Assembly (NCBI RefSeq): GCF_018141405.1
Contig: NZ_CP058648.1
Location: 1,689,001-1,753,000, forward strand
Source: Serpentinicella alkaliphila
GTDB lineage: Bacteria; Bacillota; Clostridia; Peptostreptococcales; Natronincolaceae
Reading direction: 5' to 3'
Length of the DNA stretch: 64,000 bases
Shown: in pieces, positions 51,869 to 63,853 of the stretch
How positions within the stretch are numbered: position 1 is the stretch's first letter
Layout of the letters: the number at the start of each line of letters is the position of its first letter
Notes under the pieces: generated by a model
What the model was told of the DNA's origin: nothing
Databases searched by the model: none
The model's input: only the letters and a program-made list of their open reading frames with translations
Translations under genes and position numbers: made by a program

Positions 51869-52650
51869 CTATTTATCAACTAGACTATTAACTACTACAA
51901 GACGATTGTAATAATTTTTTTGTCTTAAGAGGTCTAAATATTGACCAGGAGAACAACTAGAGAACTCGCTAAAATCCTTGTACATGTGGGATTGGCCATA
52001 GTAACCTGCTTCTTGGGCTATTAGAATGAGGCTGGATTGATTAGGATTAGCAATATATTTATTCAGTTTGTTCAATACATACTGAAATCGTATGATTTTA
52101 CTTAATAGTTTTGGAGACATTCCGAAATACTCAGTAAATTTGAGATTTGTATGTCTTTCTGAATATCCAATTTCATAGGCTAAATCCTTTATTTTTATTT
52201 GTCCTTTAGACTCAATAACTCTTTTTATCATATGATTTTTTAGAAGCAGAGGGCTTGATGTGGATTTAGTTTTTTCTATTTGTTTTGTGTAAAATTCCAT
52301 GAAGTAGGATACCTGGGTCATAAAATCCATACTAGTTACAATTTTTTCATAATATCTCTAGTCTCAAGAATATCTTTTAATGAAATAGTGTTACCAATAA
52401 TTTCTTTAATATGGATATCCTTATTTATTAAGTACTCACCAGGATAAAATCTAACACCAAAATAAAAACTTGAAGGATTAGATAACACTTTTTTAGGTTG
52501 TAAAACTGTAGCGCAGATTTCAGCATTGGGTGACGTGTCATTACAAGTAAAGAGAAGGTCGAAGCATGCGTCTGGAACTGCTATCATATCCTCTGATTCC
52601 AATACATCCCTTTTGAAAGTATAAAAATGTGAAATGCCATAATTATTCAT
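51869..52650 (-). pseudogene. AraC-family regulator with a one-base frameshift
   Basis: The first frame (52650 down to 52336) is an N-terminal sensing domain (YGISHFYTFKRDVLESEDMI ... KDILETRDIMKKL). The second frame (52330 down to 51869) holds two AraC helix-turn-helix units: IKIKDLAYEIGYSERHTNLK and LILIAQEAGYYGQSHMYKDF, then the FSSCSPGQY signature. Adding one A to the six-A tract at 52342-52347 (coding strand AAAAAA) joins them as ...DIMKKIVTSMDFMTQVSYF, so a single homopolymer deletion caused the break. It is divergent from the oxidase operon at 52871 and was probably its activator. Confidence 0.8.
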
Positions 52651-53280: not shown

Positions 53281-53607
53281 ATGAGAAAGATTAATGACAG
53301 ATCTAGGAATTTAGGAGTTTTTATGGAAATGGCGGACGACGAAATAATTATATGTAGATGTGAAGAGGTTACAAAGGGTGAAATACGGAGAGCGATACAT
53401 GCTGGCATGTTTACACTTCAGGAAGTAAGAAAGTTTTTGCGTACAGGTATGGGTCTGTGTCAGGGGCAGACCTGTGGGAAGTTAGTAAAAGCTATTATTG
53501 CGCGAGAACTTAATATATCACCTAATGAACTAGAATCATCAACTGGCCGTGCTCCGATGCGTCCTATTGAAATGCAGGTACTGGCCAATGAAAGAAAGGA
53601 GGGCTGA
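53281..53607 (+). CDS. BFD-like [2Fe-2S]-binding protein
   Basis: A 108-residue protein with the bacterioferritin-associated-ferredoxin fold. The cluster cysteines are in IIICRCEEVTKGEI and MGLCQGQTCGKLVKAII, the CxC ... CxxxxC pattern of the family. In HcnABC-like oxidase complexes this domain links the FAD subunits. AAGGAGG precedes the ATG, and it overlaps neither neighbour but lies within 5 bases of both, so it is in the same operon as the ferredoxin and FAD oxidoreductase genes. Confidence 0.85.
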   Translation: MRKINDRSRNLGVFMEMADDEIIICRCEEVTKGEIRRAIHAGMFTLQEVRKFLRTGMGLCQGQTCGKLVKAIIARELNISPNELESSTGRAPMRPIEMQVLANERKEG

Positions 53608-53611
53608 TCGT

Positions 53612-54742
53612 ATGGAAAATCATGCAGATGTTGTCATTGTTGGGAGTGGAGTAATCGGAAATGATGCAGCCTACTATTTAGCAAAAGAGGGAAAGTATGT
53701 AATAGTATTAGAAATAAGTGACCACATTGGTGATGGTGGTTCAACTAGAAATGGGGGTGGGGTTAGGCAGTCAGGTAGACATCCTGCTGAATTGCCACTT
53801 GCTATGTATAGCGTACAAAACCTATGACCGAAACTTTCAGAGGAACTTGGTATAGATGTTGAGTATTATCAAGAAGGAAACTTGAGATTAGGTAAAACAC
53901 AGGAGCACCTCAAAATTTTAAAAGAGCTTACGGAACGATCAAAAACATTGGGTTTGGATGTAAGAATGATAGATGGGGATGAGGCAAGAAATATTAATCC
54001 GTATCTTTCAGATGAAGCTATTGGAGCTAGTTGGTGTCACACTGATGGGCATGCTAATCCTTTGTTAGTAACACTTGCTTACTACATGAAAGGTAGAGAG
54101 TTGGGCGTACGATTCATAACTGGTGAGGAAGTTATAGAAGTTAGAAAGATTAAGGGTAGGGCACGAAAAGTAGTGACTGAGAACAATATCTATGAAGGGG
54201 ATAAAATTATTATTGCGGCCGGTCTAAATACTCGTCAAATAGTTAGAACTATAGGGATAGATGTGCCAATGAATCCTGTTCTATTAGAAGTATTTGTTAC
54301 AGAACCTCTACCTGAAATGTTTTATCATAAGCTTGGAACAGCAGAGGCTGATTTTTATGGGCATCAAAGTACTCATGGGTCCTTTGTTTTTGGGGGGACA
54401 TCGAGATTGGATGCTTTTGCTTTAGAACCTGAAAATAATCGGACTATGAGTATTACTGCACCATATATTTGTCGTGGAATAATTAAATACTTTCCTAATT
54501 TAAAAGAACTAAAGATTATAAGGACATGGTCAGGCTACATTGATGATTGTGTTGATCATATACCAGTCATTAGTAATGTTGAAGAAGTTCCTGGTTTGAT
54601 CATTGCCTGTGCTTTTTCAGGCCACGGATTTGGTATTTCACCAGCAGTAGGAATACTACTTTCTGAATTGGCTTTGGATAAAGAGACAACTTTAGATATT
54701 AGTCCTTTTCGATATAATCGTTTTAAGGCAAAAATACAATGA
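53612..54742 (+). pseudogene. FAD-dependent oxidoreductase (DadA/glycine-oxidase type) with an in-frame TGA
   Basis: From the ATG at 53612 (AGGAGGG upstream) the frame starts with the FAD loop DVVIVGSGVIGNDAAYYLA and the DAO signature GDGGSTRNGGGVRQSGRHP. A TGA at 53825-53827 interrupts VQNL-x-PKLSEELGIDVEYY. The same frame then runs without another stop to 54742, with the substrate-domain block EGNLRLGKTQ and the FAD-binding end CAFSGHGFGISPAVGILLSE. Relatives usually have Trp at the TGA position, so TGG to TGA is the likely mutation. The whole protein would be 376 residues, a normal size. The RidA gene overlaps its stop (ATGA). Confidence 0.85.
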
Positions 54743-56399: not shown

Positions 56400-59192
56400 A
56401 TGAGAAGATTTAAAAAAGCCCTAGCTACGATAGGAATAGTTTCTATAATAGTGACCAGTTCTATTTCCAGTGTTTTTGCAATTGAAAGTGTTGTTTATGA
56501 AAAACAAAGTAGACAGATGATTTCTAGCGGTGTAACCCATAAACATGTTTTAAGATTTGGCAAGGATGGATGGCTCAATGCCAATGTTGTATATATTGAC
56601 TTAGATAATCCTTCTATGAATCTAGATATATTACAAAGTGCTAATGGAATAACAACAAAAGAAACCCTATCTACTATGGTAAACAGAAATCAAAATGTAG
56701 TAGCAGCTATCAATGCTGATTTTTTTTATTTAACGACCCCAGACTCTCCGATGGGGGCTATGATTAAAGATGGAGAAATGATCAGTAGTCCTATTTTTGT
56801 AGAAAACTTTGCAACCCTATCGATTAATAAAAATAATGAGGCTTATGCAGATTATTTGAAGTGTGAAATTTATGTGTCAACTGATAAGGGAAATAGTATA
56901 CCAGTAACTACGATTAATAAATATACCCATGAATACCAAGGGATTATGTTGATAGATAGTAATTGGGGTGCTAGTACTCCAGGTTATAATCCAAAGCATT
57001 ATGATATGGTAGAGATAGTTGTTATTGGGGATACTGTTACAGAGGTAAGGCGACAACAACCTTCAACATTAATTCCACAAAATGGTTATGTTTTGCTTTC
57101 ATCACAAGATAATGCAAGGGTCTTATTTGATAATATAAAAGTAGGAGATAATTTAAAAGTAAATACAAATATTTCTCCATTTGTGCTAGAAGATATAAAG
57201 CTAGCTATAGGTGGGGGTACTGTATTGGTAAAAAACGGACAGCCTTTCACTTTTACGCAAAGCATAACTGGAAACCATCCTAGAACAGCAGTAGGTATAA
57301 CAAAGGATAGAAAAAAATTAATTATGGTAACAGTGGATGGAAGACATAGTTCTTTTGTTGGAGTAGATGGTAAGCGATTAGCTGATTTAATGATAGAGTT
57401 AGGTAGTCATGAAGCTATACTAATGGATGGTGGAGGTTCTACCACTATGATGGCTAGAGGCTTAGGGAACTCCCATGCAGAATTAGTAAATATTCCTTCC
57501 GACGGAGGGGAAAGAAGAATTGTAAATGGATTAGCAGTTGTTTCTCAAAGTATTCAAACTGAGTTAAATGGTATTACTACAGCAATTAGTGAAGACAAAG
57601 GATTTGTCGGAACCTCAAGAGAGATTTTGGTTAAAGCCTTTGATACAAATTATAATCCCCTAGCAGTGAATCAAAAAGAATTAAGGTTTTTGATAAAGAA
57701 GGGTGAAGGCTTCTTTCAGGGTAACCGTTTTATACCTACAAGGGCTGGGGAAACGATAATAGAGGTAGATTACTTAGGAAAAAAATCAGAAGTTAAATTG
57801 AAAGTGCTTGAAGAAGTAAGATTATTGCAGATATCTCCAGGAAGTATTGCATTGAGCCCCGGTGGAAATGCTACACCAAAGGTAATTGGTGTTGATAAGA
57901 ATGGATATAGTGCTACTATTTCTACAGGGGACTTAAGCTGGAAAGATGAAAAAGGGCTAGGTACCTTTATAAATGGGGTGTATACGGCAGGGGAAAAAAG
58001 TGGTACGACTACATTGATCGCTACATTTAAGAATCAGACTGCTACTGTACCTGTTGTAATAGCATCTAATAAAATTTCATTAGGTGGATTAGACAAATAT
58101 AACTATAAATTTACTTCTTTCCCAGCAACTGTGACTGGAAGTGTTTCAAAGGACACTAACACAAAGGTTGGACAGCATTCCTTGAAATTAGAGTATGACT
58201 TTACTCAAACAGATGGAACAAGGGCCGCATATATTGAATTTGAAGGGGGAAATGTGATTTTACCTTCTAACCCTACGAAAATAGGTCTATGGGTATTCTC
58301 TTATGAAAATACTCCTGGATGGATTAGGGGAAATGTTAAGGACGCAAGTGGAACAAGATATACTATTGATTTTAAAAGAGGTATCGATTGGATTGGTTGG
58401 CAATACTTAGAGGCAAACCTACCGCAAAACATTTTATCAACGGTTGAGTTAGAGAGAATTTACGTAGTTGAGACGGACAGTAATAATAAGGTTGGGGGTA
58501 AACTTTTATTTGATGGTCTTGATGTTACTTATGGAACTCAATCAACTGCAGTTATTGAGCAAAGGGGACTAGAGGATTATTTGAATGTTCCATACGAAGC
58601 TAAAGGAACACAGTTTTTTGTACATAGCGGAGTTATCTATAGCGAAGCTATGAGTCAAATAAATGCTGAAACTACGGAAAAATTGAAGACTGCGATTAAT
58701 AATAATTACGATGTAGCCATATTTACGGACAATCTAAAAAGTGACATTGTTAGTGGATTAAATAAACCAACAGTTATTGCTTCTCGAGGATACGAAATGA
58801 GAGAATATGAAGATAATCTAATTATTTACTTAGACAGCAGATCTGGAGGTCTTCGAAATACTGATTTTAGCCAGTGGCCATGGTTGATGAATCTATTAAA
58901 AACTAATAACAAGAAAAATGTTTTTGTTATATTACCAGGACCTATTAGTGGGTTTACAGATCAACTGGAGGCAAAGCTATTGCGACAAACTTTAACAGAT
59001 GCTGCTGAGAAAGATAAGAACGTTTTTGTTCTTCAGAATGGGGGACAAAGTGTTCAACCTGAGTTACTAGATGGTGTAAGATATATTTCCACTGGTATGT
59101 ATAACAATACTACTGGAAGGTCTTCCAAGTATGTACTTTTCAATATATTAAATAATCAAGTTACTTACCAAATAAAAGATATAACTGAGTAA
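56400..59192 (+). CDS. Exported phosphodiester-glycosidase (NAGPA-domain) protein, large
   Basis: A 930-residue secreted protein. Residues 1-27 form a signal peptide (LATIGIVSIIVTSSISSVFA). A NAGPA domain covers about residues 90-395. Its blocks are VVAAINADFFYLTTPDSPMG, LAIGGGTVLVKNG, HPRTAVGITKDRKKLIMVTV, DGRHSSFVGVDGKRLADLMI, EAILMDGGGSTTMMARGLGN and RIVNGLAVVSQ; the DGGGSTT motif is the hallmark. Family members cleave GlcNAc-1-phosphodiesters, such as teichoic-acid or glycan links. Two Ig-like regions (about 400-565), a carbohydrate-binding-like jelly roll (about 570-720) and a phosphoesterase-like end follow. AGGAGGAG precedes the ATG. The terminator is at 59238. Confidence 0.85.
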   Translation: MRRFKKALATIGIVSIIVTSSISSVFAIESVVYEKQSRQMISSGVTHKHVLRFGKDGWLNANVVYIDLDNPSMNLDILQSANGITTKETLSTMVNRNQNVVAAINADFFYLTTPDSPMGAMIKDGEMISSPIFVENFATLSINKNNEAYADYLKCEIYVSTDKGNSIPVTTINKYTHEYQGIMLIDSNWGASTPGYNPKHYDMVEIVVIGDTVTEVRRQQPSTLIPQNGYVLLSSQDNARVLFDNIKVGDNLKVNTNISPFVLEDIKLAIGGGTVLVKNGQPFTFTQSITGNHPRTAVGITKDRKKLIMVTVDGRHSSFVGVDGKRLADLMIELGSHEAILMDGGGSTTMMARGLGNSHAELVNIPSDGGERRIVNGLAVVSQSIQTELNGITTAISEDKGFVGTSREILVKAFDTNYNPLAVNQKELRFLIKKGEGFFQGNRFIPTRAGETIIEVDYLGKKSEVKLKVLEEVRLLQISPGSIALSPGGNATPKVIGVDKNGYSATISTGDLSWKDEKGLGTFINGVYTAGEKSGTTTLIATFKNQTATVPVVIASNKISLGGLDKYNYKFTSFPATVTGSVSKDTNTKVGQHSLKLEYDFTQTDGTRAAYIEFEGGNVILPSNPTKIGLWVFSYENTPGWIRGNVKDASGTRYTIDFKRGIDWIGWQYLEANLPQNILSTVELERIYVVETDSNNKVGGKLLFDGLDVTYGTQSTAVIEQRGLEDYLNVPYEAKGTQFFVHSGVIYSEAMSQINAETTEKLKTAINNNYDVAIFTDNLKSDIVSGLNKPTVIASRGYEMREYEDNLIIYLDSRSGGLRNTDFSQWPWLMNLLKTNNKKNVFVILPGPISGFTDQLEAKLLRQTLTDAAEKDKNVFVLQNGGQSVQPELLDGVRYISTGMYNNTTGRSSKYVLFNILNNQVTYQIKDITE

Positions 59193-59500: not shown

Positions 59501-60139
59501 TTAGAGTTTATTTAGGTACATCTTATGACTAATAACAACTAATACATCGTTTTTCTTGATTATATCGTCACTAGAAAGCGATAATTTAATTTCATCACCA
59601 CTTTTTATTGCAACAACATTTGCATTATATGTAAGTCTAAAATTTAATTCAGCGAGACTCTTTTCTTCCCATTCAGGTAATGCAATAACCTCTACAATAC
59701 TATAATCAGGTGATAATTCAATATAATCTAATAAATTTGTAGCGATTAAATTATGTGCTATTCTAATACCCATATCTCTTTCAGGAAAAATGACCCGATC
59801 AGCACCAACAGACTCTAAGATTTTTGCATGAATATTGTTTAATGCTTTTACCACAATACGTTTAGCTCCTAGATCTTTTAGGTTTACAATTGTCATAATA
59901 GAAGCCTCTACATTATTTCCAATACCTATAACAATAGCATCGAAATTTTCTATTCCCAGCGATGCTAAATTGTCCGGGTTTGTAGAATTACCCTGAACTG
60001 AATACGAAACTTTATCACTTAATTCCTGTACCAGTTTTACATCGATATCCATAATAGCTACATATTTGTCCATTTTCACTAGTGCATCGGCAACGCTTCT
60101 ACCAAAACGACCACAACCTATTATGAGAAAATCTTTCAT
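59501..60139 (-). CDS. TrkA-family (RCK domain) K+ uptake regulatory subunit
   Basis: A 212-residue cytoplasmic gating ring subunit of a Ktr/Trk K+ transporter. The TrkA-N part starts FLIIGCGRFGRSVADALVKM (GxGxxG nucleotide loop with Asp in AIMDIDVKLV). It continues with YSVQGNSTNPDNLASLGIEN, IVIGIGNNVEASIMTIVNLK and VVKALNNIHAKILESVGADR. A TrkA-C domain (about residues 135-212) ends the protein. AAGGTTG precedes the ATG weakly. No KtrB pore gene is adjacent; one must be elsewhere if the protein works. It is divergent from the membrane-anchored RCK-like protein at 60384. Confidence 0.88.
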   Translation of the reverse strand: MKDFLIIGCGRFGRSVADALVKMDKYVAIMDIDVKLVQELSDKVSYSVQGNSTNPDNLASLGIENFDAIVIGIGNNVEASIMTIVNLKDLGAKRIVVKALNNIHAKILESVGADRVIFPERDMGIRIAHNLIATNLLDYIELSPDYSIVEVIALPEWEEKSLAELNFRLTYNANVVAIKSGDEIKLSLSSDDIIKKNDVLVVISHKMYLNKL

Positions 60140-60217: not shown

Positions 60218-60337
60218 AGAGTTTATTATAAATATATGCTATACAATAAACAATGTAATATAATAAACTCTCTATTGCAATAAAGCCATATAAATATTAA
60301 TACGATATTAACATCTATAAATAAATATTAATACAAT
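60218..60337. promoter_or_regulatory. Divergent control region with an inverted repeat and a 31-bp-spaced direct repeat
   Basis: A 13-bp perfect inverted repeat (AGAGTTTATTATA at 60218-60230 and its complement at 60259-60271) lies near the trkA side. Two direct repeats AAATATTAATAC(G/A)AT (60292-60306 and 60323-60337) are 31 bp apart, three helical turns, next to the 60384 gene. Direct repeats suit an OmpR/KdpE-type regulator. AT-rich DNA makes chance symmetry possible. No ydaO-type riboswitch is seen. Confidence 0.4.
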
Positions 60338-60383
60338 CTTTATAACTATAGCAGTAAACTACTATCAAAAGGAGGAGAGTAAT

Positions 60384-60893
60384 TTGACTTTTATAGTAGT
60401 TTTAATTGTAATAGTTATTTTACTTATCGGATACTATTTAATGGATCAAGTAGATAAGTTCTTAGAAAGCTACGCTGATTATGAAAATTGTTTTTATGTA
60501 GGTGCAGATAGCAAAGAGATAAAAGAAAAAGTGGTTTTAATATATGGAAACAATGAGCTAACTAAATTAGTAGAAGCTTATTGTTATTCTCAAAAATATA
60601 TATATGAATCCATAACTGATATCAATTGCATAAGCACTGTGTCAAATTATAGATGTTTGTTTGCGCTATCTTATAATGATGTAGATAATTTAATGATTAG
60701 CTCTGTTGCATTTAAAGTTTATTCTATCCCTAATATAATTGCATTATGTAACAATCAGAGTTACTTAAAGATATATAATGAATTTAGATTTGATGAGGTA
60801 CTACTTTATAATGATAATATAACCATGCTTTTTAATACAATAAAGGGATGGCTAGAAGATGCGGCCAAAGACAAAAGTCAAGATTTGATTTAA
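60384..60893 (+). CDS. Membrane-anchored degenerate RCK/TrkA-N-like protein
   Basis: A 169-residue protein. One N-terminal membrane helix (FIVVLIVIVILLIGYYLMD) is followed by a cytoplasmic domain. That domain follows the pattern of TrkA-N: VVLIYGNNELTKLVEAYC at the nucleotide-loop place (no GxGxxG), FALSYNDVDNLMISSVAFKV, SIPNIIALCNNQSYLKIYNE and FRFDEVLLYND, which matches the VIARVNN...GVDRVI end of RCK domains. It has therefore lost nucleotide binding but kept the fold, by inference. The start is a TTG at 60384 after AGGAGGAG. It faces a real TrkA gene and precedes KdpD/E, so a role in K+ sensing is plausible. The stretch 60894-61167 after it has only a 24-codon open frame (61067-61141). Confidence 0.6.
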   Translation: MTFIVVLIVIVILLIGYYLMDQVDKFLESYADYENCFYVGADSKEIKEKVVLIYGNNELTKLVEAYCYSQKYIYESITDINCISTVSNYRCLFALSYNDVDNLMISSVAFKVYSIPNIIALCNNQSYLKIYNEFRFDEVLLYNDNITMLFNTIKGWLEDAAKDKSQDLI

Positions 60894-61167
60894 CTTATGA
60901 AAAACTATCATACAAGCAGGGACTTAATTTTGCAAATGACTAATTTAGAGTAATAAAACTATTGACCAGATAGCTGTTAGAGTTAAAAAAAGAATATAAT
61001 TAATAAAATTAATATGACCACAGCGTAATATGATGAAAAGGCAATCTCTTTGACCTGTTAAAGCATATGTCTAAAAAAGAAAAACATTTAATTAATGCAG
61101 GAAATAAAGCAGATATATTGAGCCTATTAAAGAAATTCTAGCTAAAGTAATGTGATACAATAGATTA

Positions 61168-62618
61168 GTGGAGGTGAGCATTATTAACAAGAAAAAACAA
61201 ATTCACACAAATTACATCCTCAAGCTTCTATTAATTACAGCCATATCCACAATCTTATCTCTAACTTTAGGTAGTTTTGGTATAGGTAAAGAAAGTATAA
61301 TTATGGTGTTTTTAGTTGGTGTTTTGATTGTAACTGTCACCACAAAGGGTTATTTTTATGGTATATTCGCAGCAATCGTCAGTGTGCTTATGTTCAACTA
61401 CTACTTTACAGCGCCAACTTATACTCTTATCACTTATTACAGCAATGATGTTATACTAATGGTATCATTTCTAGGGGTATCACTGATATCCGGAACAATG
61501 ACAAAAAGATTTCAACAACAATTACAAATTTCCCAACAAAATGAGCACACTGCAAGACTGCTATATAGAATTACAGAGAGCTTCTTAAATATTACTGGAC
61601 AAAGACAAATTATTATCAAGGGCATTGATTGTATTTATGATAACACTGGCTACAATAGTAGAGTATTATTAGTAGAGTCTGATAAAATGAATATTTATGA
61701 GAGCAGAGAATTTGTAATAGGTAATATGGAAATGATGGAAATACCAATTAGAGGGTTAACGAAGAAGCTGGGTGTCATGCAGATCATCTACTCTAAAGAA
61801 ACTTTTACCTTTGAGCGTGAACTTCTAATTAAGACTGTTGTGACACAAATGGGTTTGTCACTCGATAGAGAGTTTATATATAATGAACGTGAAAATATTC
61901 GTATTGCCATGGAACGTGAGAAGATGCACAGTAACATACTAAGGGCTATATCCCATGATCTAAGAACACCATTAACAGGTATCGTTGGTGCTAGTGGGGT
62001 AATACTTGAGAATTTAAATCAGTTAGAGAAATCTAGTATAGAGAACCTTGTTTCTGATATTAATGAAGAGGCAATTTGGCTAAATAGCTTGTAGAAAACA
62101 TTCTAAATATGACCCGAATTAATGAAGGTAAGCTTATAATAGAAAAGAATTATGAGGTGGTTGATGATATTATTTATGAGGCAATTAGGCATATCAATAA
62201 CATATCGAAGACAAGAAGCATATCTGTATCAATGCCTGATGAAATAGTGACTCTTTTAATAGATGGAAAGCTAATTGTACAAGTACTCATTAATCTATTA
62301 GATAATGCTATAAAACATACACAGGAGGATTGTAGGATATTTATTCGAGTATATACAGAGGGTGATATGGCAATTTTCGAAGTGGCAGATGATGGAAATG
62401 GAGTAGATGAGAGTATTCAAACATCACTATTTGATAGCTTTGTCACTCTTTCTAGTAAGATTATAGATGATAAAAGGGGAATTGGTCTTGGCCTATCAAT
62501 ATGCAAAGCCATTGTGGAAGCTCATGACGGTACCATATATGTGGGAGAGGCTGCTGAAGGTGGGGCCTTATTTACATTTAAAATACCACTGGTAGGAGAG
62601 GATAATAATGGAGGATAA
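61168..62618 (+). pseudogene. kdpD: KdpD-like sensor histidine kinase with a one-base deletion
   Basis: A K+-response kinase shortened to its C-terminal half: four membrane helices (DUF4118, about residues 20-105), a GAF-like linker, then the HisKA box ILRAISHDLRTPLTGIVGAS with the phospho-His. The frame ends at a TAG at 62092-62094. Inserting one G after TTG near 62091 restores LVENILNMTRINEGKLIIEK and the ATPase domain (NLLDNAIKHTQED, DDGNGVDESI, GIGLGLSICKAIVEAHDG). The KdpD-specific N-terminal sensory and Usp domains are absent. The start is unclear (GTG at 61168 or a rarer codon after GGAGGTG). The second frame overlaps kdpE by 11 bases. Confidence 0.8.
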
Positions 62619-63303
62619 TTTAAAAATATTAATCATTGAAGACGACAAATATATACGAAATTTCATATCTCTTTCCTTAAAAACAAGTGGATATGTTTTT
62701 GAAACTGCAAAGACAGGTTTAGATGGGATTTCACTATTCTATAGCAATCACCCAGATATCATATTACTTGATTTAGGATTACCAGATATAGATGGTATCG
62801 ACATCATTAAATCAATTCGTATGATTTCAGATGTGCCGATTTTGGTAGTGTCTGCTAGAGGTCAGGAGACTGAAAAGATAGCTGCACTAGATGAGGGGGC
62901 AGATGATTATATTACAAAACCATTTCATATGGGAGAATTAATGGCACGTATTCGTGTTATTCAAAGAAAACTAAAAAAGGCAATACAGTTCGAAAATATT
63001 GAAAAATTTCATATGGATTACCTTGTAATTGACTATGAAAAGAGGATGGTTTTAGTTGATCAAAATGAAGTGCATTTAACACCTATTGAATATAAAATAT
63101 TATTACTTTTAGTAGCAAATAAAGGTAAAGTCCTTACTCATAACTATATTTTGAAGGAAGTGTGGGGTTACGGCGAAACCGGTGATCCAAAGTCTATTCG
63201 TGTTTTTGTGGCAAATCTCAGACGAAAGATTGAGAAGGATCGTGCTGTTCCACGGTTTATTTTGACAGAGGTTGGGGTAGGCTATAGATTTGCAAATGAA
63301 TAA
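62608..63303 (+). CDS. kdpE: KdpE-like response regulator, OmpR family
   Basis: A 231-residue DNA-binding response regulator. The receiver domain has the acidic pair ILIIEDDKYIRNF, the phospho-acceptor in DIILLDLGLPDIDG, Thr/Ser in PILVVSARGQE and Lys in DDYITKPFHMGEL. The winged-helix output domain (residues 135-231) includes VHLTPIEYKILLLLVANKGK and SIRVFVANLRRKIEKDRAVP with GVGYRF at the end, closest to KdpE. It is translationally coupled to the kinase gene. There is no kdpFABC nearby, so targets must be elsewhere or are the K+-linked genes next door. Confidence 0.88.
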   Translation: MEDNLKILIIEDDKYIRNFISLSLKTSGYVFETAKTGLDGISLFYSNHPDIILLDLGLPDIDGIDIIKSIRMISDVPILVVSARGQETEKIAALDEGADDYITKPFHMGELMARIRVIQRKLKKAIQFENIEKFHMDYLVIDYEKRMVLVDQNEVHLTPIEYKILLLLVANKGKVLTHNYILKEVWGYGETGDPKSIRVFVANLRRKIEKDRAVPRFILTEVGVGYRFANE

Positions 63304-63326: not shown

Positions 63327-63765
63327 ATGAAAAATAGTTTTAGAGTACCATGGCATCTTTGGTTCGTTGCACTATTTTTTATATATTTATCTACGCTAAT
63401 GGGTTCTACGATTACTTTATGATGCTTAGTCATAATGAAGCATACTATAATTCTCAAGGCTATGGATTAGATGTATTTGAATACTTTACAGATTATCCTA
63501 TCCTGCCTTTAGTATTCTGGACAATTAATGTTGGTAGTGGTTTAATTGCACCAGTGCTACTTCTATTCCGGTCCCGCTGGGCGGTTCTGGTTGCTTTATT
63601 TCATCTATATCTATATTGTGCCTAGAACTTATTACATTTACATTTATGAATCGTTGGAATGTCCTAGGGCCATGGATATCCATTTTTGATGTAGCTATAC
63701 TTCTTATGACATTTGGACTTTATTTCTATAGTAAAGCAATGGTCAAACGTGGAGTATTAAGATGA
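63327..63765 (+). pseudogene. Small polytopic membrane protein gene with two frameshifts
   Basis: From the ATG at 63327 the frame reads MKNSFRVPWHLWFVALFFIY and then breaks in a T-run. A second frame carries YANGFYDYFMMLSHNEAYYN, YFTDYPILPLVFWTINVGSG and APVLLLFRSRWAVLVAL and breaks again. A third reads SSISILCLELITFTFMNRWN ... YFYSKAMVKRGVLR. Joined, they make a sound protein of about 145 residues with four helices. I recognise it as a small membrane family of unknown role. It follows kdpE by 23 bases with AAGGGAG upstream. Nothing is coded from 63766 to 64000. Confidence 0.6.
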
Positions 63766-63853
63766 TTGTATAACAATACATACATGACTCGCTTTTACTA
63801 GAGAGTATTGTTATGCTTATAAATAATACATATACTTATTAACAGAACATCAT

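Follow-up and report, generated by a model that had tools for sequence, protein, structure and literature searches.

The open reading frame at 60384-60893 of the window (the whole stretch of DNA that was analysed, 64,000 nucleotides) encodes a member of an unnamed clostridial family, in which one N-terminal membrane helix is joined to a shortened RCK lobe devoid of the nucleotide loop, and whose gene shows tight genetic linkage to a short DUF4118 sensor kinase. The function which we favour, with a probability of about 0.4, is that of a membrane-tethered accessory subunit, which would dock on the TrkA/TrkH machinery and inform or restrain the sensor kinase. RCK lobes are known as components of the rings by which K+ channels and transporters are gated. 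Each single part of the protein is known; their combination in one unnamed family appears to be new.

Architecture and family

The protein (Table 1) is composed of a membrane helix (residues 2 to about 20, the helix as such extending to residue 35), a linker (36-48) and a degenerate RCK N-lobe (49-167). The Pfam model TrkA_N (PF02254) matched residues 50-140 with 22.2 bits, which falls just below its gathering cut-off of 23.8 bits; matches with E<=0.01 were obtained for 10 of 21 family members. For the RCK C-lobe (TrkA_C, PF02080) there was no Pfam match in the protein or its family, the chain stopping after the N-lobe. NCBIfam yielded no fitting model, only fragments of TrkA models, and neither Pfam nor NCBIfam holds a family that covers the protein. 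Searches of viral contigs and of PHROGs gave no match to the family.

Relatives were found in 24 clostridial loci. Among 98 related genomes searched, six others of the same family held homologues at 37-70% identity, and a different family of the order contributed three genomes with weaker ones (26-28%); profile searches widened the distribution to several clostridial families. With homologues across these genomes, the open reading frame is a gene and no chance reading frame. An eleventh match among the 98 relatives (G070) proved to be an ordinary TrkA. Weak matches in many genomes, confined to profile positions of about 90-155, were not counted as members either; those at L021, L079, L082, L083, L103 and L104 were ordinary TM1088A/B-like TrkA proteins.

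In 21 aligned members the residues G16, D24, S96, D99, N102, C122 and N123 are invariant. Best conserved are the motif GYxxMxKxDxF of the N-terminal, juxtamembrane part and the motif ALSxxDxDNL...CN. The original prediction had described an RCK/TrkA-N-like domain without GxGxxG and with a membrane helix in front, and both features were confirmed: the top-scoring hydrophobic stretch of 19 residues was N-terminal in all 21 members, and GxGxxG was present at the nucleotide loop in none of them, compared with 20 of 20 neighbouring TrkA proteins. Relative to TrkA, some 25 residues are missing between the loop and beta4. It is implausible that the protein binds nucleotide at the usual site.

Cys122-Asn123 was kept in 21 of 21 members despite the fast evolution of the protein (mean identity 27%, 15 loci); TM1088B has Val-Asn. 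A redox or thiol role of C122 is possible. The dN/dS values of the window ORF against its relatives were 0.22-0.29, those of pairs from intact operons 0.24-0.37; to judge by these ratios, the window ORF is open under normal constraint.

Predicted fold and ancestry

AlphaFold modelled the window protein (mean pLDDT 86.8) as a helix at residues 2-35, a disordered linker and a Rossmann-like beta-alpha domain, and the model of a distant member (pLDDT 81.8) agreed with it. In both models a beta-alpha-beta unit runs straight into beta-alpha-beta-alpha-beta-alpha, and alphaB-beta3-alphaC as well as the RCK C-lobe are missing. Best Foldseek matches for both were the RCK of GsuK and the TM1088A/B ring (3l4b). 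Structure comparison gave Z scores of 12.9 for GsuK (2.2 Å, 115 aligned) and 12.3 for KtrA 5but (2.2 Å, 112). Many receiver domains of response regulators followed closely at Z 11-12 (maximum 11.9 against the window-protein model), so that the fold alone cannot separate RCK from receiver; with beta3 missing, the sheet is five-stranded and thus receiver-like. RCK ancestry was therefore decided by sequence profiles, which matched RCK proteins only, and a receiver ancestry was rejected.

When the family was compared by hhalign with clostridial TM1088B-like proteins, a probability of 98.5% (E 3.6e-15) was obtained; the TrkA of its own operon reached 1%, being of the wrong subfamily. Direct profile scores (hmmsearch) were 41-54 bits for TM1088B-like, 10-35 for TM1088A-like and about 0 for own-operon TrkA proteins. 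A profile search of the PDB listed TM1088A (4e-8), TM1088B (6e-4) and then the RCK of E. coli Kch. On sequence grounds, the closest known relatives are thus TM1088B-type subunits and not the neighbouring TrkA.

TM1088B is the subunit without nucleotide binding in a solved two-subunit ring, and its ring-contact residues are Leu80, Phe81 and Met111 (PMC4380455). In the alignment, Leu80 corresponds to L103, which is L or I in 21 of 21 members, and Phe81 to M104, a mostly hydrophobic site; the counterpart of Met111 is F134, which is unconserved in distant members. According to the best reading, the family would descend from a TM1088B-type RCK subunit, having lost the loop, alphaB-beta3-alphaC and the C-lobe and gained a membrane helix.

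Comparison with known systems

TM1088B, which belongs to the TM1088A/B-TM1089 Trk system of Thermotoga maritima (PDB 3l4b; PMC4380455), and its homologues in clostridia share with the family a homologous N-lobe, best in its second half. Like the family, TM1088B has no usable nucleotide loop and is encoded beside TrkH and another RCK subunit. It is, however, soluble, with a full N-lobe and a domain-swapping RCK C-lobe, whereas the family has one N-terminal membrane helix and neither C-lobe nor alphaB-beta3-alphaC. TM1088A (PDB 2g1u), the best PDB match by sequence, also consists of an N-lobe only, but it is soluble, has GxGxxG and binds AMP (PMC4380455). KtrA and TrkA proteins (PF02254 plus PF02080, for example the trkA product of the same operon) share the RCK/TrkA-N fold class and the context of K+ transport, but bind nucleotide via GxGRFG and possess TrkA_C. 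In the channels GsuK (the top fold match) and MthK a membrane helix is followed by RCK, as in the family, which differs by having no pore domain, one helix only and a single short lobe. The N-terminal sensor domain of KdpD and the KdpD accessories LprF/LprJ and UspC (PMC3610689) have no sequence or fold relation to the family; the family might act likewise on the DUF4118 kinase, from outside the C-terminal half.

In Pfam, NCBIfam and the open-access literature, no described family was found with a membrane helix and a loop-less RCK lobe. The earlier statement that no family of this design was known agrees with this result, but the design does have a precedent in its closest relative, TM1088B, an RCK subunit without nucleotide from a solved two-subunit ring.

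Genomic neighbourhood

The usual order in relatives is the gene itself, trkH, trkA, a DUF4118 histidine kinase and a KdpE-like regulator. At 17 of 24 loci the gene is located directly 5' of trkH, often with an overlap of the coding regions (up to 40 bp; 29 bp in four close relatives). At L073 and L074 trkH-trkA is divergent. There is no adjacent trkH in the window, L016 and L018-L020, where gene, trkA, kinase and regulator are still together. Kinase and regulator were present at 22 of 22 loci free of contig-end cuts, and trkA was paired genomically with the gene at every uncut locus. Within the 98 relatives, 10 genomes had gene and kinase, a single one had just the kinase, located at a contig edge, and the gene alone occurred in none (Fisher p 8e-13); for 391 genomes of the class the numbers were 10, 2 and 0 (p 3e-18), values which overstate the linkage, since related genomes are not independent. 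The family thus occurs nearly always with a short K+-type sensor kinase, and therefore probably ties K+ transport to gene control. An unrelated fold or a missing K+ neighbourhood, named beforehand as grounds for refutation, were both looked for and neither was found.

The original prediction had also proposed that the protein could poison RCK rings, i.e., that it is a negative subunit which breaks TrkA rings. It would fit this role as truncated kin of ring subunits without a C-lobe, but the gene heads the operon of the very TrkA to be poisoned, overlaps trkH translationally and never occurs apart from the kinase; specific support was not found, and we consider this the least probable explanation.

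The kinases of the window and of L012 contain DUF4118, HisKA and HATPase only; the KdpD sensor domain PF02702 and Usp are absent. The window regulator gave its best NCBIfam score with the KdpE model (215.5 bits; model cut-off 325 bits). A kinase-regulator pair without the gene and without Trk genes occurs at L105 and L106, which are the two kinase-only cases, and trkH-trkA pairs without the gene are common (L080, L108). At L108 trkH-trkA is followed by kinase and regulator, the gene being absent, and the kinase is extended at its N-terminus by a stretch that weakly resembles Usp. At L109 and L110 a KdpD-domain protein, encoded separately, precedes the short-form kinase; the two halves of this split KdpD, a protein with KdpD domain and GAF and the DUF4118 kinase, lie side by side (L109 3904-7157, by Pfam; L110 4737-7975, by similarity).

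A direct sensor, which detects a small ligand or the redox state and signals to the kinase independently of TrkA, would suit the close linkage to a kinase without cytosolic sensor domain, as well as the invariance of Cys122-Asn123 and of S96, D99 and N102 in 21 of 21 members. It appears unlikely, considering that the nucleotide loop and its segment are lost, that D99 and N102 are general RCK positions and that a ligand pocket is only putative.

Another explanation is a role confined to the transporter, as a structural or gating subunit: the lobe would join the TrkA ring as TM1088B does with TM1088A, the helix would pack on TrkH and set assembly or gating, and the kinase would be linked merely as the regulator of the operon. 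The nearest relatives are ring subunits, the frequent overlap with trkH directly 3' fits such a partner, and the mirror-tree distance correlation of the gene was highest with TrkH (0.95, compared with 0.92 for the kinase, values that do not decide between the partners). However, five loci keep the gene with the kinase and not with trkH, trkH-trkA commonly does without the gene, and the protein has neither the RCK C-lobe nor the second half of the nucleotide lobe. A transporter-only role seems somewhat less likely and ranks next after the accessory subunit that informs the kinase; both roles are what we infer from the evidence.

An Rfam scan 5' of the operon, which covered the window and a set of loci of relatives, revealed no c-di-AMP riboswitch and no other element. 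Between the regulator and a second trkA, L012 (7791-8138) and L013 (5436-5897) contain an ORF of 115-153 amino acids, without Pfam match in the L012 copy; the ORF overlaps this second trkA by 4 bp. Separately, clostridial operons of the TM1088A/B-like type, trkA-trkA-trkH, were located just 3' of genes for a large histidine kinase and response regulators (L104 2985-8501, L083, L018 2632-8154 and L021 6912-12492); this arrangement is a second, separate case of Trk and two-component genes.

The copy in the window

Table 1. Features of the locus in the window
Feature	Positions	Strand	Basis and remarks
TrkA, GCGRFG loop intact, TrkA_C present, head to head with the gene under study	59501..60139	-	Pfam
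Shine-Dalgarno sequence AGGAGG	60370..60375	+	8 bases 5' of the TTG start; sequence
Gene under study, 169 aa	60384..60893	+	TTG start; ORF call and homologues
trkH 5'-end relic without its start codon, reading RFDLTYEKLS in another frame	60862..60907	+	blastn to L012 3468-3524 and L013
Deletion junction, about 1.8 kb missing relative to L012/L013	60908..60953		Window 60907 = L012 3524; 60954 = L012 5343
trkA (ktrA-like) 3'-end relic	60954..61141	+	Broken by 14-bp insertion and 1-bp deletion
Sensor kinase part, DUF4118 and HisKA, KdpD-like without KdpD/Usp domain	61168..62094	+	Pfam; L012 alignment
HATPase part of the same kinase, other frame	62109..62618	+	Pfam; L012 alignment
KdpE-like response regulator	62608..63303	+	NCBIfam, Pfam

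The operon of the window has decayed. Positions 60294-60907 align to L012 2907-3524, and 60954-63302 to L012 5343-7676; the deleted span extends from about codon 17 of trkH to about residue 173 of trkA, i.e., it comprises most of both genes. The trkH relic and the 3' end of the gene overlap, just as the two genes do in relatives. Loss of one base at about 62090, either genuine or due to an error in sequencing, causes a frameshift that truncates the kinase ORF. The window protein is thus the remainder of a K+ operon. The genome encodes two other TrkH genes.

The head-to-head position with a normal TrkA, which the original prediction noted, exists in the window but is not the usual arrangement, as the gene normally leads the trkH-trkA-kinase-regulator operon; the homologue of this TrkA in L012 (57% identical over the full length) and L013 is situated at the 3' end of that operon. 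Similarly, the genes 3' of the ORF, taken before for KdpD/E, do encode a KdpD-like kinase and a KdpE-like regulator, but the kinase is no full KdpD and is split by the frameshift, and the trkH and trkA between are mostly deleted.

That the gene is a functionless relic in this genome could be supposed from the deletion of trkH and trkA and the frameshifted kinase. Yet its ORF is intact with the low dN/dS given above, while the trkA relic has suffered indels, and the family as a whole would be left unexplained; we regard this as quite improbable. The window protein may still be working with the TrkA encoded at 59501-60139.

Apparent frameshift-split genes were also noticed nearby, namely for an AraC-type regulator (51869-52650, - strand), an FAD oxidoreductase (53549-54742, +), the kinase (61168-62618, +) and a membrane protein (63327-63767, +). 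They reflect either local gene decay or assembly indel errors; the genome, a single contig with a completeness of 99.76%, speaks against assembly errors throughout. A protein of 930 amino acids with an apparent signal peptide is encoded upstream of the trkA gene (56400-59192, +).

Proposed function

In the accessory subunit proposed here, the membrane helix would hold the RCK-like domain at the inner membrane face, and the retained half-lobe beta4-alphaD-beta5-alphaE, the half with the ring-contact residues in TM1088B, would dock at TrkH on the TrkA/KtrA ring, which binds nucleotide. The protein would then relay the state of the ring to the kinase, replacing the missing N-domain of KdpD; the simplest relay would be a kinase which is switched off at sufficient K+. 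The protein of the window could act only with the 59501 TrkA and, provided that the frameshift is a reading error, with the kinase.

Precedents exist for KdpD. The E. coli protein minus its N-domain responds to K+ limitation, without repression at high K+ (PMC2714519). KdpD also has known accessory proteins, and membrane lipoproteins of M. tuberculosis act as such (PMC3610689). To go by the title of a paper from 2000, cited in PMC3610689, the N-domain of KdpD complements in trans.

Taken with this literature, the loop-less half-lobe with ring contacts, the membrane tether and the sensor-less kinase favour an adaptor between the Trk complex and the kinase. It is supported by the five loci where gene, kinase and regulator are kept although trkH is missing, by the intact, constrained window ORF next to a trkA relic hit by indels, and by the arrangements without the gene, in which the kinase has a Usp-like extension (L108) or a separate KdpD-domain protein (L109/L110). 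Against the adaptor, the coding overlap with trkH argues equally for a transporter partner; the kinase-regulator pairs without the gene at L105 and L106, the slightly higher distance correlation with TrkH and the unconserved F134 count against the adaptor as well. Among the functional guesses made earlier, sensing of K+ status for the kinase best fits the kinase linkage, the mechanism being what we infer.

Sensing of K+ by KdpD-type kinases is still debated. With considerable doubt it may be suggested that this undescribed family couples the gating ring of a K+ transporter to a membrane sensor kinase, in that a nucleotide-blind RCK lobe would replace the KdpD sensor domain in trans and the gating state would become the signal for transcription. 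Half an RCK lobe, without nucleotide site, tied to the membrane and encoded beside a sensor-less kinase, suggests a direct route from the state of a transporter to gene expression, and a compact natural system of five genes would make K+ sensing of the KdpD type testable.
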